64,000 nt of DNA. Source: Haloterrigena salifodinae (GTDB lineage: Archaea; Halobacteriota; Halobacteria; Halobacteriales; Natrialbaceae). The position numbers and the translations under genes were made by a program. This document shows positions 2,323-51,744 of this stretch, piece by piece (the stretch's first letter is position 1; each line of letters begins with the position of its first letter). A model generated the notes under the pieces. That model did no database searches. It saw only the letters and a list, made by a program, of their open reading frames with translations, and had not been told where the DNA came from. The stretch covers positions 806,001 through 870,000 of the forward strand of contig NZ_RQWN01000002.1 of NCBI RefSeq assembly GCF_003977755.1, given 5' to 3'.

Positions 2323-2862
2323 TCAGCCGTCCGCCGGCATCGGCGACTCGTGCGACTCGCGCTCGAGCGACCGAGAGTGACGCCGAGCAACCAATCGGGC
2401 CGCGAGAGCCAGAAGGATCGAAACCGGTGCGACCCATCGATCACGGCTGCTGTAGAATCCCGGAAAGACGACGTCGGCGTCGGTGAGCGGCCAGAGGTAC
2501 TGGTAGGTGCCCGCCGGCGGCACCAACAGGAGATCGAGTACGAAGTGTGATAGCGCCCCGAGCGCGAGCAGGAGCGCGACCGCCCGCCGGTACTCCGCGC
2601 GGATGGTCAGCGAAGCGATGCAGATCACGACCGCCACGCCGCCGATCGAGTGCATCGGTCGCCAGGAAAACGACGCGCCGAGCGCAGCCTCGATCGTCTC
2701 CGGCGAGACGATCCATTTCAACCGATTGAGGTCGGGGAGCATCCCGCCGACCATCGCGACGGTCGCCAGCCGCGCCGTGATCCACGGATACCGTATCGAG
2801 AGGAGCGTCGCAAGCGCGTACGCGACCAGCACGTGCGTCAAGCCGTCGGCCACGTCGATCAC
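2323..2862 (-). CDS. Membrane metal-dependent hydrolase, DUF457 family
   Basis: A 179-residue protein with the same motif series as the gene at 1724. It has a DGLTHVLVAYAL helix near the N-terminus, GGMLPDLNRL near 40, RPMHSIGG near 70 and GALSHFVLDLLL near 100. Four hydrophobic segments are likely. The start codon overlaps the stop of the upstream gene (2859-3368) by ATGA, so the two are probably translated as one operon. Sequence similarity to the 1724 product is limited to the motifs, so this is a separate subfamily rather than a recent duplicate. Confidence 0.8.
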   Translation of the reverse strand: MIDVADGLTHVLVAYALATLLSIRYPWITARLATVAMVGGMLPDLNRLKWIVSPETIEAALGASFSWRPMHSIGGVAVVICIASLTIRAEYRRAVALLLALGALSHFVLDLLLVPPAGTYQYLWPLTDADVVFPGFYSSRDRWVAPVSILLALAARLVARRHSRSLERESHESPMPADG

Positions 2863-4624: not shown

Positions 4625-5746
4625 ATGGAGTACGTTCAGGAGCGGATCGCGACGCTCCACGAGTTCGGCGGGACCGCCGGCCGCGACGGCAACCTCGCCC
4701 ACGCGGCCGCCGACGCCGTCGCCGAGACGGCCGTCGTCGTCCCGATGACCGCCCGCGAACACGAGAATCCCGCCGCCGAACGCGTTCTCTCGGAACTCGA
4801 GTCCCTCGATCCCACCCCGACCGCCGTCTTCGTTCCCGTCCGCGCCGACGCCGACGAGATCGGCCCGTTTCGCAACTGGCTCGAGTCCTTCTCGCTGCCG
4901 ATTCGCGTCCTGTGGTGTAACGCTCCTCGAGTCGACGCCCTGCTGGCCGACGCGGGGTTGGACGGCGAGTTCGGCAAGGGCCGGGACGTCTGGCTCGCGC
5001 TCGGACCCGCCGCCGACGCCGGCGAGTACGTCGTCGTCCACGACGCCGACGCCAGGAGCTACGAGGCCGGCCACGTCCCGCGCCTGCTCGCGCCGCTGAC
5101 GATGGACTACGCCTTCTCGAAGGGGTACTACGCCCGCGTCGAGGACGGCCGGCTCTACGGGCGGCTCTTCCGACTGTTCTACGCCCCGCTCGTTCGCGCG
5201 CTCGCCGACCGCCACGACGCGCCGATCCTCGACTACCTCCGGGCCTTCCGGTATCCGCTCGCCGGCGAGTTCGCCGCCACGGCCGCCCTCGCCCGTCGGC
5301 TCCGCGCGCCGCGGGCCTGGGGCCTCGAGGTCGGAACCCTCGGCGACGCCTTCGACGCGGCCGGGTTCGACGGCGCCGCACAGGTCGACCTCGGGCGCCA
5401 CGAACACGACCACCGCGCGGTCGCCGGCGAGACCGGCCTCGAGGGGATGAGCCGCGAGGTGGCCGGAGAGCTGCTTCGCGTCGTCGAGGAGCGCGGCGTT
5501 GATCCCGACTACGAGACCCTCCAGGAGCGGTACCTCGCGGCCGGCGATCGGCTGATCGAGCAGTACCGCGCCGACGCAGCGTTCAACGGACTCGCCTACG
5601 ATCCCGCGGCCGAACGGGACCAGCTCGCCCGCTACGCCGGCTCGATCGCGCCGCCCGACCCCGACCGCCGGCTGCCGTCGTGGACGGACGCGCCGGTGAC
5701 GCCCGAGGCGATCGTCTCGGCCACGCTGGCGGTCCGTAACGCGTAA
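4625..5746 (+). CDS. Glucosyl-3-phosphoglycerate synthase-like glycosyltransferase (GT81 type)
   Basis: A 373-residue protein starting MEYVQERIATLHEFGG, chosen over an in-frame ATG 36 bases upstream because a TATA-like gttttacc lies about 28 bases before it. It has a GT-A fold: VVVPMTAREHENPAAERVL near residue 40, a GKGRDVWLALG segment near 118 and the metal-binding VVHDADARSY (D-A-D) near 140. The order matches glucosyl-3-phosphoglycerate and mannosyl-3-phosphoglycerate synthases. Those enzymes transfer a sugar to 3-phosphoglycerate or to glycerate in compatible-solute synthesis. Substrate assignment is inference. No phosphatase partner lies next to it. Confidence 0.75.
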   Translation: MEYVQERIATLHEFGGTAGRDGNLAHAAADAVAETAVVVPMTAREHENPAAERVLSELESLDPTPTAVFVPVRADADEIGPFRNWLESFSLPIRVLWCNAPRVDALLADAGLDGEFGKGRDVWLALGPAADAGEYVVVHDADARSYEAGHVPRLLAPLTMDYAFSKGYYARVEDGRLYGRLFRLFYAPLVRALADRHDAPILDYLRAFRYPLAGEFAATAALARRLRAPRAWGLEVGTLGDAFDAAGFDGAAQVDLGRHEHDHRAVAGETGLEGMSREVAGELLRVVEERGVDPDYETLQERYLAAGDRLIEQYRADAAFNGLAYDPAAERDQLARYAGSIAPPDPDRRLPSWTDAPVTPEAIVSATLAVRNA

Positions 5747-5805: not shown

Positions 5806-6285
5806 ATGGACGCGACTGCGGACGAACTGGCGGGCGTCGTCGACCTCTTCGGCGGGCTGACCCGCGCGGAACTCGAGCGGGCGCTCTCCGAGGCGGCGTT
5901 CCGGGCGGACGGCCAGTCCGTCGACGAGGCGGCCCTCGAGACGGCGATCGAGGACGCCCTCGAGTCGTTCGCGCTCGTTCGCCACGAGCAGACCGTCGAC
6001 GGCGAGCGCCGGTCGCTGCTGGTCGCCGGGCCGACGGCGTTCCCGTCGGTGCCGGACCACGCCGAGGACGTCCCGCACATCCTCGACGTCGACCGGCGGC
6101 GGCTGGACCGCGAGGCACTCGGCGAGACGGCCCGCGAGCAGTTCACCGACGCCGTCGGGGCGGCCGAAGCGGCCGAGGACGAGGACCGGATCCGACACCT
6201 GATCGACGTCAGCTACGACGTCGAGGCCTGGGCCCCGGTCGAACTCGCGGCCGAACGGGAGCGACTGGAAGCTGCCCTCGAGTGA
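5806..6285 (+). CDS. Haloarchaeal conserved protein (probably DUF7109 family)
   Basis: A 159-residue acidic, largely helical protein starting MDATADELAGVVDLFGGLTR. The N-terminal half resembles a small helical or winged-helix domain in which ELERALSEAAFRADG would be the second and third helices. The C-terminal half ends in HLIDVSYDVEAWAPVELA. I associate this arrangement with the haloarchaeal family DUF7109 from memory. Function is unknown. An in-frame ATG lies 42 bases upstream, but the DELAGVVDLF start is the natural domain beginning. Confidence 0.65.
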   Translation: MDATADELAGVVDLFGGLTRAELERALSEAAFRADGQSVDEAALETAIEDALESFALVRHEQTVDGERRSLLVAGPTAFPSVPDHAEDVPHILDVDRRRLDREALGETAREQFTDAVGAAEAAEDEDRIRHLIDVSYDVEAWAPVELAAERERLEAALE

Positions 6286-6448
6286 GGTCACGTCGGCGAC
6301 CGCGAGCGCCCGACGACGGATCGCGAACCGAAACGGAGATTCCGATCGGGACCGACGGTCCGACATCGACAGCGACCTCGCGGCTCCGCGACCGATCGAC
6401 CGTCGCCGCGGGGTCGCGAAACGAGAACGAAGGTGAGCGTACCCCCGT

Positions 6449-7042
6449 ATGTCACAGCCGACGATGAACCTCGAGCCGGTCGCCGACCACGCGCCCCTCG
6501 AGATCGACGACCAGGAACATGACGCGGCCGTCCTCGCGCCGATCATCGAACGCGACGGCGAGGACCACCTGCTCTTTACGCGGCGAGCCGACCACCTCGG
6601 CGAGCACCCCGGCCAGATGAGTTTTCCCGGCGGCGGCGCCGAATCGTTCGACGACTCCATTCTCGACACCGCGCTCCGCGAGGCCAACGAGGAGATCGGA
6701 CTCGAGCCCGACGAGGTCGAAATCGTCGGCCAGCTTGACGATATCCGGACGATCACGGAGTACGCCGTCACGCCGTTCGTCGGTCGCGTCCCCGACCGCG
6801 AGTACGTCGGCGACGGCTACGAGGTCGCCGAAATCGTCGTCCTGCCGCTGTCCGGGCTGCTCGATCCGGAGAACTACGAGTACGAGCGTCGGGATCACCC
6901 CTACTACGGCGACATCGTCATCCACTACTTTCACGTCGACGGCTACACCGTCTGGGGAGCGACCGGCCGCATACTCGTCCAGTTGCTCGAGTTGACGACC
7001 GAGTTCGAGCCGCCCGAACGGGTCGAACGCTCTCGACGGTAG
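6449..7042 (+). CDS. Nudix hydrolase, probable CoA pyrophosphatase
   Basis: A 197-residue Nudix protein. The Nudix box runs from about residue 61 (GGGAES) to REANEEIGL at 77-85, giving the full G-x5-E-x7-R-E-x2-E-E-x-G pattern with the metal-binding glutamates. The preceding LLFTRRADHLGEHPGQMSFP stretch is the extension seen in CoA pyrophosphatases (NudL/PCD1 type), which cleave CoA to 4-phosphopantetheine and 3',5'-ADP. The reaction is inferred from this motif; the Nudix call itself is certain. Confidence 0.9.
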   Translation: MSQPTMNLEPVADHAPLEIDDQEHDAAVLAPIIERDGEDHLLFTRRADHLGEHPGQMSFPGGGAESFDDSILDTALREANEEIGLEPDEVEIVGQLDDIRTITEYAVTPFVGRVPDREYVGDGYEVAEIVVLPLSGLLDPENYEYERRDHPYYGDIVIHYFHVDGYTVWGATGRILVQLLELTTEFEPPERVERSRR

Positions 7043-7051
7043 GCTCGTCCG

Positions 7052-7741
7052 TTACTGCTCTCGGTTCTTCGTCCCATCGGACTCGAGGTGGCCGACCACG
7101 GTTAGCGCCCCCTCGTCGAGCTCCGCCTCGGCGGTTTCCGCGTCACCGAAGCCGCCGCTGACCACCCGCGTGAGCGCTTCCTCGAGCGTCTCGTCGAGCT
7201 CGGTGAAGTCGTCGGGCGAAACCTCGAGGACGTAGCCCGACGAGATGTTCGGCGACGTCGGGAGAAAGAGCGTCGCACGGCCGTCGGGCGTCCGCTGGCC
7301 GGTCTTGAACGCGGTCATCCATACGCCGTCCCAGGTTTCGACTCTGACCGGCGTCTGGAGGGCCTCGCCCGCGCCGAACGTCGTCTCGGTGGCGGTCTTC
7401 GAGGCGTTGTAGACGACGCGGATGACGGGTACCCGGTTCGCCACGTAGTCGACGATCCCCTCGAGGACGCCGCCGATCGTCGTGTCCGTCATCTGCCCGA
7501 CGACGTACATCGCGAGGAGGAGGAATCCGACGAACGTCGTGACTCGGAGGAAGCTGGCGAGTTGGACGCGCGCGTACTCGCCCAGTCCGGGCGCGATCGC
7601 CTCGAGGGTCTCCGCGTTCAGCAGGATCCCCGGCGTCACGCCCGCGATAAACGAGTAGAGGTAATGGGCGAGGTACAGCGTCACGAGGACGGGACCGACG
7701 ACGATGAGGCCACGTCCGAAATCCCCCTTGACCGAACTCAT
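7052..7741 (-). CDS. DUF502 family membrane protein
   Basis: A 229-residue protein starting MSSVKGDFGRGLIVVGPVLV. It has a first membrane helix at about residues 10-30, a second at about 65-88 (FLRVTTFVGFLLLAMYVVGQM), and a soluble C-terminal domain with VPVIRVVYNASKTATE and LPTSPNISSGYVLEV, the hallmark segments of DUF502. Members have been linked to membrane integrity and, in plants, to a LIKE COV role; the biochemical activity is unknown. The frame continues upstream, but the ATG at 7741 is the family start. Confidence 0.88.
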   Translation of the reverse strand: MSSVKGDFGRGLIVVGPVLVTLYLAHYLYSFIAGVTPGILLNAETLEAIAPGLGEYARVQLASFLRVTTFVGFLLLAMYVVGQMTDTTIGGVLEGIVDYVANRVPVIRVVYNASKTATETTFGAGEALQTPVRVETWDGVWMTAFKTGQRTPDGRATLFLPTSPNISSGYVLEVSPDDFTELDETLEEALTRVVSGGFGDAETAEAELDEGALTVVGHLESDGTKNREQ

Positions 7742-46411: not shown

Positions 46412-47824
46412 ATGACCCAACACCCGACAGACGCCGCCGACCGCACCGATCCGATCCGGATCGTCTGTCTCGTCGCGCTCGCGACGAGCCACGGGCTGAT
46501 CCGCCTCGCCGAACGATACCTCCCCGAGTTCGTCGTCGCGATCGGCTCCGGGCCGATCGTCGCCGGCGCGCTGGTGTCGCTCGGACTGGGCGTCGCCGTC
46601 GCGGCGTCCCGGCGCTCGAGCGACGCCGACGCCGGTCCGACGAGCGACCTCGCGCCCGCCGCGGCCGCGGTGGCGTCGGTGCTCGTCGCCGCGGTCGGCC
46701 TCCTCGCGTGGGCGGGTGCGCCGACGCTCGACGCCCTGCTGGGAACGCCGCTGTCGGCGCTGGGGTGGCTCGCGGTCGGGATCGTCCTCCTGCAAGCGTG
46801 GTACGTCCGCGGCCCCGTGCGGGACCTGTGGCCGACCGATACGCGCGCGGCGGCACCGCCCTCGAGCGCGGTGCCCGCCCGCGACGAGACGTCGATCCGG
46901 CGCGGTGCCATCGACGGGCGACGAACGTGGATCGTCGTCGGCGCGCTCGGCCTCGCCGCGGCGGCCGTGTTCGCGGCGGCCGCCGTCGCGAGCGCCGGCG
47001 GAGTCCGCGCGGGCTTCACAATCGTCGCCGCGACCGGTGCCGCGGTCACCCTCGTCGGCGCGGTCGCGCTGGGGTCTGCGGGGGAACGAACGTCGACCCT
47101 CGCCGGGAGAGTGCTCGGCGATGGCCTCGCGGAGGGCAACCGAGACGGCGAGAGTGAGACGCACAGGGACGAGACGACCACCGCTGCGCCGGCCGACGCG
47201 GAGTCCCCGCTCGGCGCGGTCAGCAGCGCCGCCTCGAGGCTCCCCGACCGCCGCCGCTGGGCGGTCATCGGCGACGCTCTCGTTCGGGTCGCCCTCGCCG
47301 GGAGCTGGCCGTTCCTGATCCTGCTGGTCGTCGAGTACCGTTCGATCGGGCTCTCGATCGGCGGCCTCTCGCTGGCGCCGGCCGCCGTCTTCGGCCTGTT
47401 CGTCCTCGCGGAGGCCGCGGGCGCGGTCGTCGGCGCGGTCGCCGCCCCCGCCCTCGCCTCGCGGCTCGACCGGCGCGCGGTGCTGGCCGTCGGTCTCGCC
47501 GTCGTCTCGCTGCTCCCGATGGGGCTCGTGGCGGCCCCGTCCAACGCCGGTATCGTCGCCGTCCTGTTCGCGCTGCTGGGCTGTCGGACGGCGATCGAAC
47601 CGCTCCGGCCGACCGTCGGCGAGAGCGCTCGCGTCGCCCCAGTTCCCGGCCCGCGGCTCCCCGACGCGGTCGGGACGGCGGTGCAGGTCGCCGTCGTCCC
47701 CGCACCGCTGATCGGCGGCCTCCTGTACGCGGTCGATCCAATCTTCGCGTTCACTATCGCGACGACGGTCGGCCTGCTGGGCGTTCGCGAACTGGGGCGG
47801 GCGTTCGCGTTCGGACGGCCGTGA
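46412..47824 (+). CDS. MFS-like membrane transporter
   Basis: A 470-residue protein with about twelve hydrophobic segments. A long acidic cytosolic loop (SETHRDETTTAAPADAESPL) lies between the two halves. The second half has a regular MFS-like pattern: VALAGSWPFLILLVVEYRSI, ASRLDRRAVLAVGLAVVSLL and VGTAVQVAVVPAPLIGGLLY. There is no specific substrate signature. The stop overlaps the oxidase start by GTGA, so the two are co-translated. It may move a metal or cofactor for the oxidase, but this is speculation. Confidence 0.68.
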   Translation: MTQHPTDAADRTDPIRIVCLVALATSHGLIRLAERYLPEFVVAIGSGPIVAGALVSLGLGVAVAASRRSSDADAGPTSDLAPAAAAVASVLVAAVGLLAWAGAPTLDALLGTPLSALGWLAVGIVLLQAWYVRGPVRDLWPTDTRAAAPPSSAVPARDETSIRRGAIDGRRTWIVVGALGLAAAAVFAAAAVASAGGVRAGFTIVAATGAAVTLVGAVALGSAGERTSTLAGRVLGDGLAEGNRDGESETHRDETTTAAPADAESPLGAVSSAASRLPDRRRWAVIGDALVRVALAGSWPFLILLVVEYRSIGLSIGGLSLAPAAVFGLFVLAEAAGAVVGAVAAPALASRLDRRAVLAVGLAVVSLLPMGLVAAPSNAGIVAVLFALLGCRTAIEPLRPTVGESARVAPVPGPRLPDAVGTAVQVAVVPAPLIGGLLYAVDPIFAFTIATTVGLLGVRELGRAFAFGRP

Positions 47825-49320
47825 CCCGATCGACCGGTCGGCCGAACGTCGATCACCGACGGCTCGCCCGCTGGCACCTCGTGCTGGCGCTGGTGATGGG
47901 GCTGTGGGGCGGGCTCGACGCGCTGTTCCTGCGAACGGCGCTGGTCACTCCGACTCTCGGTCGGTTGACGGCCGAGACCTACAATGCCTTCTTCACGACC
48001 CACGGGCTGACGATGCTGTTCCTGTTCGCGCTGCCGGCGATCTGGGGCGTGGCCTACGTCGCCGTCCCCCCGCTGATCGAGGCCGACGACGTCGCCGCGC
48101 CGACCCTCGGCGCGGTCGCGTTCTGGCTGCAGGTCCCCGCGGCGCTGTCGATTCGGGCGGGCACGATCGGCGGCATCCTCGGCCTGGCGGGCCTCGAGCC
48201 GGTCGCCAGCGGGTGGACGCTGTATCCGCCGCTGAGCGTGCTGTCGGCGAACCCAGCCGTCGACGCCCTCCTCGCTGGACTCGCGCTGGTCGCCGTCGGG
48301 ACGACGCTGACGGCGTGGACGCTCCTCTGCACGATTCTGCGCGAGCGTGAGGTCCGATGGCTCGAGGTAGACACGTTCACGTGGACGGTGCTGACCGCCG
48401 CGGTGATGTCTCTGCTGGCGTTTCCGGTGCTAGCGACGACGGTCGCGCTCGTTCTCGCGGATCGGACGCTCGCCACCGGGTTCCTCCTCGGCGGCGGCGG
48501 GCCGCTGGTCTGGCAACACCTGTTCTGGTTCTTCGCCCATCCGCTGGTGTACATCGTGGTGTTGCCCCCGATGGGAATCGTCAGCCACGTGCTGCCGCGG
48601 TTCGCCGGCCGGCAGCTGTTCGGCCACCGCTCGTCCGTCTACTCGACGCTCGCGATCGGCGTCGTCTCGTTCACCGTCTGGGCCCACCACATGTTCGTGA
48701 CCGGACTGAGCCTCCCCGTGCGGACGGTCTTCATGTTCACGACGCTGGCGGTGGCGCTCCCGAGCTCCGCGAAACTCTGTACGTGGCTCGTGACGCTATG
48801 GGGCGGTTCGATCCGGTACACCGCGCCGATGGTTGCGTCCCTCGCCGCCGTCGGCTTCTTCGTCGTCGGCGGCGTCACCGGCGTCTTCCTCGCCGCCGTG
48901 CCGATCAACGTCCGCTACACCGGGACCTACTACGTCGTCGCGCACTTCCACCTGCTGCTCGCCGGCTTCGTCGCGCTCGCGCTCGTCGCCGGGGTCTACT
49001 ACTGGTTCCCCCTGCTCACCGGCCGGCGCCTCGAGCCGGGGCTGGCCCGCCTGCACGTCTGGCTCACGGTCGTCGGCGTCGCGGTGACCTTCGGAGCGCT
49101 CCTGCTCGTCGGCCTCGCACAACTCCCGCGGCGCGTCGCGACCTATCCGGCGGCGTACGCGCCGCTGCACCAACTGGCGACCGTCGGCGCCTACGTGATC
49201 GCCGCCGGCCAGGCCGTCTTCCTCGCGAACCTCGCCCGGTCGCTGTGGCTCGGCGGGCCCGACCCCGACGATCCGTGGGCCCTCGAATCGGGGCCGTCGC
49301 ACACACGCGAATGGAAATAA
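47821..49320 (+). CDS. Heme-copper oxidase subunit I, divergent
   Basis: A 499-residue protein with about twelve helices. All metal ligands are present: His61 (TTHGLTMLF) and His377 (VVAHFHLLL) for the low-spin heme, His375 for the high-spin heme, and His240, His289 and His290 (WAHHMF) for copper B. Tyr244 follows His240 by four residues, as in the cross-linked Tyr. However, HPLVYI replaces HPEVYI, and the residue pair before the His is Phe-Ala, not Tyr-Ser, so neither known D-channel gate is present. Lys318 (SSAKLC) keeps the K-channel. No subunit II gene is next to it. It starts with GTG overlapping the upstream gene. Confidence 0.9.
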   Translation: MTRSTGRPNVDHRRLARWHLVLALVMGLWGGLDALFLRTALVTPTLGRLTAETYNAFFTTHGLTMLFLFALPAIWGVAYVAVPPLIEADDVAAPTLGAVAFWLQVPAALSIRAGTIGGILGLAGLEPVASGWTLYPPLSVLSANPAVDALLAGLALVAVGTTLTAWTLLCTILREREVRWLEVDTFTWTVLTAAVMSLLAFPVLATTVALVLADRTLATGFLLGGGGPLVWQHLFWFFAHPLVYIVVLPPMGIVSHVLPRFAGRQLFGHRSSVYSTLAIGVVSFTVWAHHMFVTGLSLPVRTVFMFTTLAVALPSSAKLCTWLVTLWGGSIRYTAPMVASLAAVGFFVVGGVTGVFLAAVPINVRYTGTYYVVAHFHLLLAGFVALALVAGVYYWFPLLTGRRLEPGLARLHVWLTVVGVAVTFGALLLVGLAQLPRRVATYPAAYAPLHQLATVGAYVIAAGQAVFLANLARSLWLGGPDPDDPWALESGPSHTREWK

Positions 49321-49830: not shown

Positions 49831-49838
49831 AGGCCCTC

Positions 49839-49886
49839 GCTACGTCCGGACTCGGCCGGTTGCGGGTTCGACTCCCGCGCGTAGCT
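49839..49886 (+). other. tRNA-like acceptor and T-arm structure (tRNA remnant)
   Basis: The sequence ggttcgactcc (49865-49875) matches the tRNA box B consensus exactly. A five-base-pair T stem (gcggg / cccgc, 49862-49866 and 49874-49878) surrounds a seven-base loop. Bases 49839-49845 (gctacgt) pair with 49879-49885 (gcgtagc) as a seven-pair acceptor stem with one wobble pair. Only 16 bases, with a small ccgg/ccgg stem, take the place of the D and anticodon arms. No anticodon is present, so it cannot be a working tRNA. It may be a deleted tRNA gene, an attachment-site remnant or a tRNA-like RNA. Confidence 0.55.
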
Positions 49887-49915
49887 TCGGCGGCTTCGCC
49901 GCCGGTGACGAACCG

Positions 49916-50281
49916 ATGCCCAGCCACCCACCGAGCGACACCGACGACAGTACCGAACCGATCTCCGACGAGCACGCGGAGCCGCGGCCGCTGGCGAACC
50001 TGACCGGGTTCAAACGCGATCAGCTGTTCGTCATCCGAATGCTCGCCGAGCGAAACCCTCACGGACTCGTCATCAAGGACAAACTCGACTGTTACTACGA
50101 CGAGGAGATCAACCAGGGCCGACTCTACCAGAACCTGAGCGAACTCGTCGAAGAGGGCTACGTCGAGAAACACCCTCTCGACGGGCGAACCAACGCCTAT
50201 CGTCCGAGCACGCGCGCCAACAGGCGCCTCGAGGAACACCACGAGTGGGAGCGCCGCTGCCTCTGCTGTGAGTCCCCATGA
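49916..50281 (+). CDS. PadR family transcriptional regulator
   Basis: A 121-residue protein. The N-terminal 30 residues are acidic and disordered, then the PadR winged helix follows: LTGFKRDQLFVIRMLAERNP, HGLVIKDKLDCYYDEEINQG, RLYQNLSELVEEGYVEKHPL, DGRTNAYRPSTRANRRLE. A final CLCCESP may bind metal. The C-terminal dimerisation helix of PadR is short here. It lies upstream of the glutamate-dehydrogenase-like gene and downstream of the oxidase block, and might regulate either. Confidence 0.85.
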   Translation: MPSHPPSDTDDSTEPISDEHAEPRPLANLTGFKRDQLFVIRMLAERNPHGLVIKDKLDCYYDEEINQGRLYQNLSELVEEGYVEKHPLDGRTNAYRPSTRANRRLEEHHEWERRCLCCESP

Positions 50282-50463
50282 CAGTCGCGCTCCCGCGGCG
50301 ATCGCACCGACGGCGTTCGCCGCCGGGCGCGGTCGCGCGTTCCCGGACTGACACCGGATCGTCCGTTCTGAGTGTGCACAGTGATCGTATCGATCGAACT
50401 CTCCGAATAGACCGACGTCTGCCGAGCGGGTCGGTCGAACACAACCGCGTTGACCCTGACACG

Positions 50464-51744
50464 ATGACAGCCTTTCACGACACCGACGACGAGACGACTC
50501 GAACCGATCCCGACCTCGCCGCCCCGTGGGCGTACGCGACGGCCGCGACGCGCCGTCTCGGCGTCCCCGACGGGATCGAACAGCGACTGCTCCACCTCCG
50601 CCAGCGCGAGCGGATTTCCGTGCCGTTCGAACACGACGACGGCACGCTCGACGTCTGCGAGGGGTACCGCGTCCGCCACGACGGCGTCCGCGGTTCCTTC
50701 CTCGGACCGCACCGGTACTACCCCGCGCTGAACGGGGACGACTGCGCCGGCCTCGCGGCCGCGACGACCGTCAGCGCGGCGATCGCCGACCTCCCGTTTG
50801 GCGGCGCCGCGGGCGGGGTCGCGGTCGATCCGACGGCGCTGTCCCGGGACGAACGCAGCCGCCTCACCCGATCCTACGCGCGCCGAATCGAGGGCGTCGA
50901 CCGCGGCGACGACGTCCTCGTTCCGGAGGTCGGTACCGACCGGCGGACGATGGCCCGGTTCGCCGACGCCGTCGCCGACGACGTCGACGCCCCCCGAACC
51001 GCGGCCGTTGCCGGCAAACCGCCGGCCATCGGCGGCCTCCGGGAGATCGATCGAGCGGGCGGTCACGGCCTCGCGCACGTGACGCGGGAGGTCCTCGAGA
51101 CCGACCACGACCGACCGCTGAGCGACGCGACGATCGCGATCTACGGCACCGAGGCCTGCGGCGTGGCGGCCGCTCGCCTGCTCGAGTTCCGGGGCGGCTC
51201 CGTCGTCGCCATGTCAAGCGACCGAGTCGGCCTCGTTGCCCCGGACGACGGCTCCGGACTCGATACCAACCTCGTGCCCAGCTATCTCGAGCGTCCGGGC
51301 GCGCTCGCCGAGTACGACGACGGCACCGTGACCGGCACCGAGAACGTCCTCGAGTGCGACGCCGACGCGTTGGTGCTCGCGGCGCCGGCGACGACGATCA
51401 CCGCCGACAACGCCGACGGCATCCGCGCCGACCTCGTCGTCGAAGGGACCGTCGGCGCCGTGACGCCGGACGGACAGCGCGCCCTCGACGAGCGCGGTAT
51501 CGACGTCGTCCCCGCCGTACTCGCGACCGCGGGGCGGCCGATCGCGGCCCATCTCGAGTGGATTCGGACCGTCGGCCGCGACCGAATGAGCGACGCGCGC
51601 GTGACCAACGAGTTCGCCTACGCGCTGACCGACGCGGTCGAGGACGTGCGCGACCGCCGCGAACGCTGCGATCTGAGTTGGCGGGCCGCGGCCTACAGCG
51701 TCGGTTGCTCCCGCGTCGCGGCGGCCCACGAGGTGATTCGGTGA
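50464..51744 (+). CDS. Glutamate dehydrogenase-like protein lacking catalytic residues
   Basis: A 426-residue protein with the Glu/Leu/Phe/Val dehydrogenase fold. GYRVRHDGVRGSFLGPHRYY aligns to the PYKGGIRYHP region, and PFGGAAGGVAVDP to PYGGGKGGIAIDP. The second has Ala116 instead of the catalytic Lys, and LVPEVGT replaces PAPDVNT (Glu155 for the catalytic Asp). The other substrate lysines align with Leu80 and Ser104. The NAD domain keeps IAIYGTEACGVAAARLLEF. It looks like a pseudoenzyme or a protein with a changed substrate. It overlaps the propeller gene by GTGA. Confidence 0.82.
   Translation: MTAFHDTDDETTRTDPDLAAPWAYATAATRRLGVPDGIEQRLLHLRQRERISVPFEHDDGTLDVCEGYRVRHDGVRGSFLGPHRYYPALNGDDCAGLAAATTVSAAIADLPFGGAAGGVAVDPTALSRDERSRLTRSYARRIEGVDRGDDVLVPEVGTDRRTMARFADAVADDVDAPRTAAVAGKPPAIGGLREIDRAGGHGLAHVTREVLETDHDRPLSDATIAIYGTEACGVAAARLLEFRGGSVVAMSSDRVGLVAPDDGSGLDTNLVPSYLERPGALAEYDDGTVTGTENVLECDADALVLAAPATTITADNADGIRADLVVEGTVGAVTPDGQRALDERGIDVVPAVLATAGRPIAAHLEWIRTVGRDRMSDARVTNEFAYALTDAVEDVRDRRERCDLSWRAAAYSVGCSRVAAAHEVIR

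Follow-up and report, generated by a model that had tools for sequence, protein, structure and literature searches.

The window analysed here, 64,000 nucleotides of haloarchaeal DNA (G000:C2:806001-870000) from the 4.96-Mb genome of Haloterrigena salifodinae, contains a segment of 48 nucleotides that resembles parts of a tRNA and lies between two genes, and the question that it raises is whether it is debris of a tRNA gene or an RNA with a function of its own. A preliminary description had recognized in it an exact box B, a five-pair T stem and a seven-pair acceptor stem in the proper register, had considered the D and anticodon arms to be absent, and had proposed that it is either what a deletion left of a tRNA gene at the border of an integrated block or a tRNA-like RNA.

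All of the named parts are present in the sequence, and the distance from the 5' acceptor strand to the T arm is exactly the 16 nt described. These 16 nt fold as a hairpin of their own, CCGG-ACTCGG-CCGG; the anticodon arm is indeed absent, in the window and in relatives, and the D arm is not simply missing, its place being taken by a D-arm-like hairpin. The overall fold is a three-way junction (Table 1), and no CCA follows the discriminator-like base. Directly 3' of the acceptor stem is a second, GC-rich hairpin, which ends 11 nt before the padR ATG (49916) and has no U run, and which was rejected on these grounds as an intrinsic terminator. Both hairpins, and the compensatory conservation of the whole, had escaped the preliminary description.

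Table 1. Positions of the tRNA-like element, its parts and the neighbouring genes in the window
Feature	Position	Strand	Remarks
Heme-copper oxidase subunit I-like gene	47821-49320	+	recurrent upstream neighbour; Pfam COX1, E=1e-120
Small membrane-protein-like gene, 108 aa	49504-49830	+	ends 8 nt before the element
P1 5' strand, acceptor-stem mimic	49839-49845	+	GCTACGT, pairs with GCGTAGC (49879-49885); 7 pairs, one of them U-G; in alignment A4 all 7 pairs change on both sides
P2 mini-hairpin CCGG-ACTCGG-CCGG, D-arm mimic	49846-49859	+	helix 96% paired; 4/4 pairs covary
P2 loop end GG	49854-49855	+	columns 21-22 of A4
Predicted elbow contacts	49854-49869	+	G49854-U49868 (G18-U55), G49855-C49869 (G19-C56)
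T-arm mimic GCGGG-TTCGACT-CCCGC	49862-49878	+	stem 49862-49866 with 49874-49878, loop 49867-49873; T-loop TTCRANN in nearly all members
P1 3' strand	49879-49885	+	predicted from sequence and conservation to stack on the T stem, giving a 12-bp acceptor/T helix
Discriminator-like base	49886	+	predicted tRNase Z cut just 3', by analogy with tRNA
Second hairpin CGGCGGC-TTC-GCCGCCG	49888-49904	+	next to start-codon region; 7/7 pairs change on both sides
GTGA, possible weak Shine-Dalgarno sequence	49905-49908	+	from sequence; not shared by all members
padR-family regulator gene, 121 aa	49916-50281	+	Pfam PF03551, E=7e-9
Glu/Leu/Phe/Val dehydrogenase-like gene	50278-51744	+	recurrent downstream neighbour

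The element was examined for its likelihood of arising by chance, which the preliminary description had held to be small. Scored as box B, a 5-pair T stem and at least 6.5 acceptor pairs, the combination occurs once in the window, against a mean of 0.013 per window in first-order Markov shuffles (both strands), in agreement with that judgement. A stricter descriptor that adds a mini-hairpin whose loop ends in GG matched related loci, 401 kb in total, 27 times at scores of at least 14, and three rounds of shuffling gave no match at all. The folding energy of the single sequence (z = -0.28) is uninformative by itself because the DNA is GC-rich. ARAGORN called no tRNA gene at the element, the canonical tRNA family (RF00005) gave no match to it even at E up to 10, and there was no Rfam match at the gathering threshold, the family being absent from Rfam 15. 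Searches of the open-access literature revealed no tRNA-like element before padR.

Covariance model R1, built from six sequences, was searched against 392 genomes of the order; 38 of these, from six families, contained matches scoring 45 bits or higher. The weak tail of this search (44 bits or less) held no convincing padR member, and four genomes with matches below 45 bits and no recognisable element (G318, G268, G297 and G374) were set aside. Model R2, built from 39 members, added further members in three families; when 295 genomes sampled across the whole phylum were searched, only those of the order gave strong matches. Model R3 was derived from a MAFFT alignment of cores (A5) in which a gap in P2 was wrongly placed, and for this reason it includes only two P2 pairs; it nevertheless separates padR members (at least 46 bits) from others (36 bits or less). 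The exact pattern CAGGCC..box B, sought genome-wide, returned mostly unrelated sequence, and its sole strong member was from Halomarina oriensis.

Pairing is conserved among these relatives, and members beyond the genus (G030, G032, G041) carry many compensatory changes. In alignments of 39 and of 51 members alike, 95% of cells are paired as the named structure requires, and 21 of 25 pairs have changes on both sides in the larger alignment, figures to be read with the fact that the alignments were fitted to the covariance model and so favour the helices. None of 500 shuffles, which keep the relatedness of the members, reached the observed double changes or covariation score, and sliding, which removes that relatedness, lowered the paired fraction to 35-46%. 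Comparative evidence of this kind indicates that the element is almost certainly a conserved structured RNA acting in cis, and the proposal of a tRNA-like RNA is upheld by covariation that conserves structure across six families of the order.

When APC-corrected mutual information was calculated for all column pairs, ten helix pairs led the list, and the eleventh, the top non-helix pair, was that of columns 21-47, the last-but-one base of the mini-hairpin loop and the second base of the T loop. At this pair 44 rows have G-U and four have C-G, without exception among ungapped rows, and the adjoining pair 22-48 is G-C in 47 of 48 rows; the two match positions G18-Psi55 and G19-C56 of tRNA. The C-G swap is carried by both copies in G279 and by G683 and G685 (three genomes, two families), the second of these families having surfaced after the model was built, and the covariation of columns 21-47 was not imposed by the model. 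No alternative or competing pairing appeared among the top covarying columns. A tRNA elbow is very probably present in the element; the evidence is strong and falls short of conclusive because independent events are few (at most two or three). The elbow covariation identifies the mini-hairpin as a putative mimic of the D arm and the anticodon arm as the missing part, so that the element would share with canonical tRNA (RF00005) the acceptor/T helix, the T loop and the elbow contacts, and differ from it in having no anticodon arm. As a predicted fold, then, the comparisons demonstrate a 12-bp acceptor/T helix, an elbow-docked D-arm-like mini-hairpin and a second hairpin before the start codon.

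The genes around the element were compared among its carriers. The element is present in all seven close padR orthologues (at least 59% identity) and in none of 23 distant PadR relatives (about 47-55% identity); its presence tracks a padR subfamily, and with few exceptions 6-10 nt separate the end of the second hairpin from the ATG of that one subfamily. A PadR tree was left out of account, since most of its rows lacking the element were wrong ORFs. The recurrent order is permease, transporter, heme-copper oxidase subunit I, small membrane protein, element and padR, followed by Glu/Leu/Phe/Val dehydrogenase, a hypothetical gene and DUF2182; a homologue of the 108-aa membrane protein had no match in Pfam. 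This neighbourhood is annotated on a plasmid of Natrinema zhouii, the RNA element itself being unannotated there. Other upstream genes also occur (for example, an antiporter-like gene), which indicates that it is padR that the element goes with. Five genomes (G030, G032, G291, G279 and G397) have a second copy of the element upstream, and the gene between the tandem copies is, where read, the small membrane-protein gene.

In four of about 40 members, the upstream gene extends into the element and its stop codon lies 14 nt inside it; in L182, L185 and L187 that codon overlaps the first base of the element. At L135, L136, L147 and L159 the upstream stop TAA falls within the P2 loop, so that upstream translation and folding of the element should compete. 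The padR gene that follows an intact element at L135 (G181; 5008-5226, plus strand) is 73 aa long and looks frameshifted. No recognisable padR lies directly downstream of the elements at L138 (G084) and L182 (G667); in G084, a further element about 11 kb away (L226) is accompanied by padR.

Two explanations in which no functional RNA is involved were also weighed. Haloviruses have tRNA-like att sites (PMC8707807), and box B and the acceptor register would suit an attachment site or the remains of a tRNA gene where DNA was integrated long ago; a relic, however, would neither keep compensatory pairs across genera, here spread over six families, nor stand consistently 6-10 nt ahead of a single gene family. 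The flanking block that had been taken for accessory DNA is a recurrent operon, though plasmid-borne in Natrinema zhouii. No tRNA with the same acceptor and T arm was found in the genome, the exact T arm occurs in it only once, and BLAST against 30 of its 45 tRNA genes gave matches of 7-17 nt only, the best being one of 15 nt. Hardly any credence can be given to the relic on this evidence. It is also extremely improbable that the inverted repeats form no RNA structure and serve instead as an operator in the DNA to which PadR binds. They adjoin the padR gene, and PadR proteins bind palindromes and often regulate themselves, but RNA is indicated by the many G-U pairs, the variation in loop length, the covariation at the elbow and the tRNA register.

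The reading favoured here, with a probability of roughly 0.5, is that the element, an anticodon-armless mimic of tRNA in the transcript upstream of padR, works as an intercistronic t-element; the chances that cleavage by tRNase Z is its main purpose appear to be about even. By analogy with known t-elements, the elbow and the 12-bp helix would recruit tRNase Z, which would cut after the discriminator base (about 49886), and RNase P may cut at 49838/49839. Cleavage would separate padR from the oxidase and membrane-protein part of the message and would leave a padR mRNA with a hairpin-capped 5' end beside the start codon, which would thereby gain its own stability and translation rate. The anticodon arm, the part that is absent, is presumably needed by neither RNase P nor RNase Z.

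A cut by tRNase Z after the discriminator is favoured on two grounds, the precedent of the haloarchaeal 5S t-element and the conservation of the 12-bp acceptor/T helix and the elbow, the parts by which both RNase P and RNase Z hold tRNA (PMC4810234). In Haloferax, t-elements placed around a crRNA are cut in vivo by RNase P and tRNase Z, and the 5' end of 5S rRNA is made via tRNase Z at a natural t-element (PMC4326828, PMC4946936). The 5S rRNA genes of the window's genome and its relatives have a comparable T arm and acceptor-like segment in the last ~60 nt before 5S (L486-L501), with the anticodon arm absent here too and 10-12 nt between acceptor strand and T arm in several genomes. Such a haloarchaeal t-element upstream of 5S rRNA was reportedly described by Hoelzle in 2008 and 2012. 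The two kinds of element have in common the host group and a T arm stacked on an acceptor-like stem, placed immediately in front of the 5S rRNA or of padR; unlike the 5S t-element, the padR element stands before an mRNA and includes a clear D-arm-like hairpin of 4 bp as well as a second hairpin. Model R3 gave no match in 12 loci around 5S genes, so that homology between the two was not supported. The 5' cut by RNase P is less sure, since in members with overlapping stop codons it would strip the stop; only a 3' cut fits every member. Against the t-element, it may be said that a mere site of processing would require neither a link to a single gene family nor a hairpin 6-10 nt from the AUG.

The main rival of the t-element is a tRNA-shaped translation leader that undergoes no cleavage, whose fold would meet the ribosome and raise or gate the translation of padR. 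The fixed distance to the AUG fits such a leader equally well, and there is a precedent in the tRNA-like leader of yjdF, which in bacteria forms a D/T-loop elbow upstream of the Shine-Dalgarno sequence; tRNA-like leaders in that position increase translation 2- to 6.3-fold in vitro, and authentic tRNAs grafted there also raise it (PMC9142559). The yjdF riboswitch resembles the padR element in having its elbow in a leader just upstream of the start codon, but it is bacterial, and it has a four-way junction, a ligand pocket and an off state with alternative pairing to the Shine-Dalgarno sequence. The padR element has a three-way junction, no sign of a switch or of such alternative pairing and no Rfam match, and a clear Shine-Dalgarno sequence is missing in many members of the family. 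The translation leader is accordingly regarded as a serious but unlikely explanation.

Elements of similar architecture were noted away from padR, as leads from single sequences that are likened to the padR family by their architecture. Weaker matches (L230-L232 and L236, at 2001 nt in element orientation) lie beside an uncharacterised gene of ~98 aa, whose family had no match in Pfam and occurs in three genera of one haloarchaeal family. Single elements are found between genes of probable mobile elements in G047 (L234) and G119 (L235), and an element with the mini-hairpin GAC-ACCAGG-GTC precedes another gene, possibly of a mobile element, in G636 (L233), which belongs to the phylum but lies outside the order. 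A tailed-phage contig of 38 kb, IMGVR_UViG_3300007735_000699, in which PHROGs identified an integrase and a head protein, contains at least four anticodon-armless elements in a row (L369; G717:C1, about 6070-7574), each of them between small genes and followed by a hairpin, a purine-rich Shine-Dalgarno sequence and a start codon. BLAST of this stretch against named phages gave no match. Most matches of the element in named phages fell on annotated tRNAs or on unannotated stretches that the descriptor did not recognize as containing one. At L480, a 4-kb IMG/VR contig, a viral tRNA-like element (703-755; GCAACCG...CGGTTGC) has a 13-nt P2 loop and is followed by a hairpin. At L481 (MAG contig JAJDDB010000015.1, labelled Phycisphaerales; 2441-2508, minus strand) the P2 hairpin is identical to that of G181 (CCGGTAAGCAGGCCGG); the contig, of 4 kb, may derive from a phage or may have been misbinned.

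These wider occurrences, together with the absence of competing pairing in the mutual-information analysis, bear on the suggestion of a ligand-sensing riboswitch, in which the three-way junction would be the aptamer and the 3' hairpin the expression platform. The leader position, the restriction to a single gene family in chromosomes, the junction with docked loops and the conserved second hairpin would all suit a riboswitch, but no conserved non-helical pocket is apparent beyond the T loop and the GG, and the same architecture stands before unrelated genes and phage genes. A riboswitch is possible, with no positive sign beyond its position, and is considered quite improbable. Less credible still is an excised RNA of ~48 nt acting in trans, comparable to mascRNA. 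The best relevant sub-threshold match in Rfam, and the nearest in shape, is indeed mascRNA/menRNA (RF01684), at 16.8 bits for the element and 29.2 bits for a phage copy, but both scores are below the threshold of 42.5 bits, and the fixed position before padR and the tandem duplicates point to action in cis. The mascRNA/menRNA family shares with the element an acceptor stem, one reduced hairpin and a T arm, differs in sitting at the 3' ends of animal lncRNAs, and is matured by RNase P and RNase Z.

That a single phage contig carries copies in front of several genes speaks for a general device. It is tentatively suggested that armless tRNA mimics may be a general intercistronic signal in archaeal operons and phages, a portable 'tRNA punctuation' of mRNA; it would consist of a T arm, a mini D arm bearing GG, an acceptor stem and a following hairpin, and might recruit either processing enzymes or the ribosome. 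For the t-element favoured at padR, the G-U to C-G swap at the elbow provides a ready-made compensatory test of tRNA mimicry, and the element, at 48 nt, is small enough to define a minimal natural substrate of tRNase Z or RNase P. The padR leader also offers a concrete haloarchaeal locus at which tRNA-like mRNA leaders can be tested. The conservation of a tRNA mimic in protein-coding messages would mean that archaea, and some phages, use the recognition of tRNA as a control signal in mRNA.
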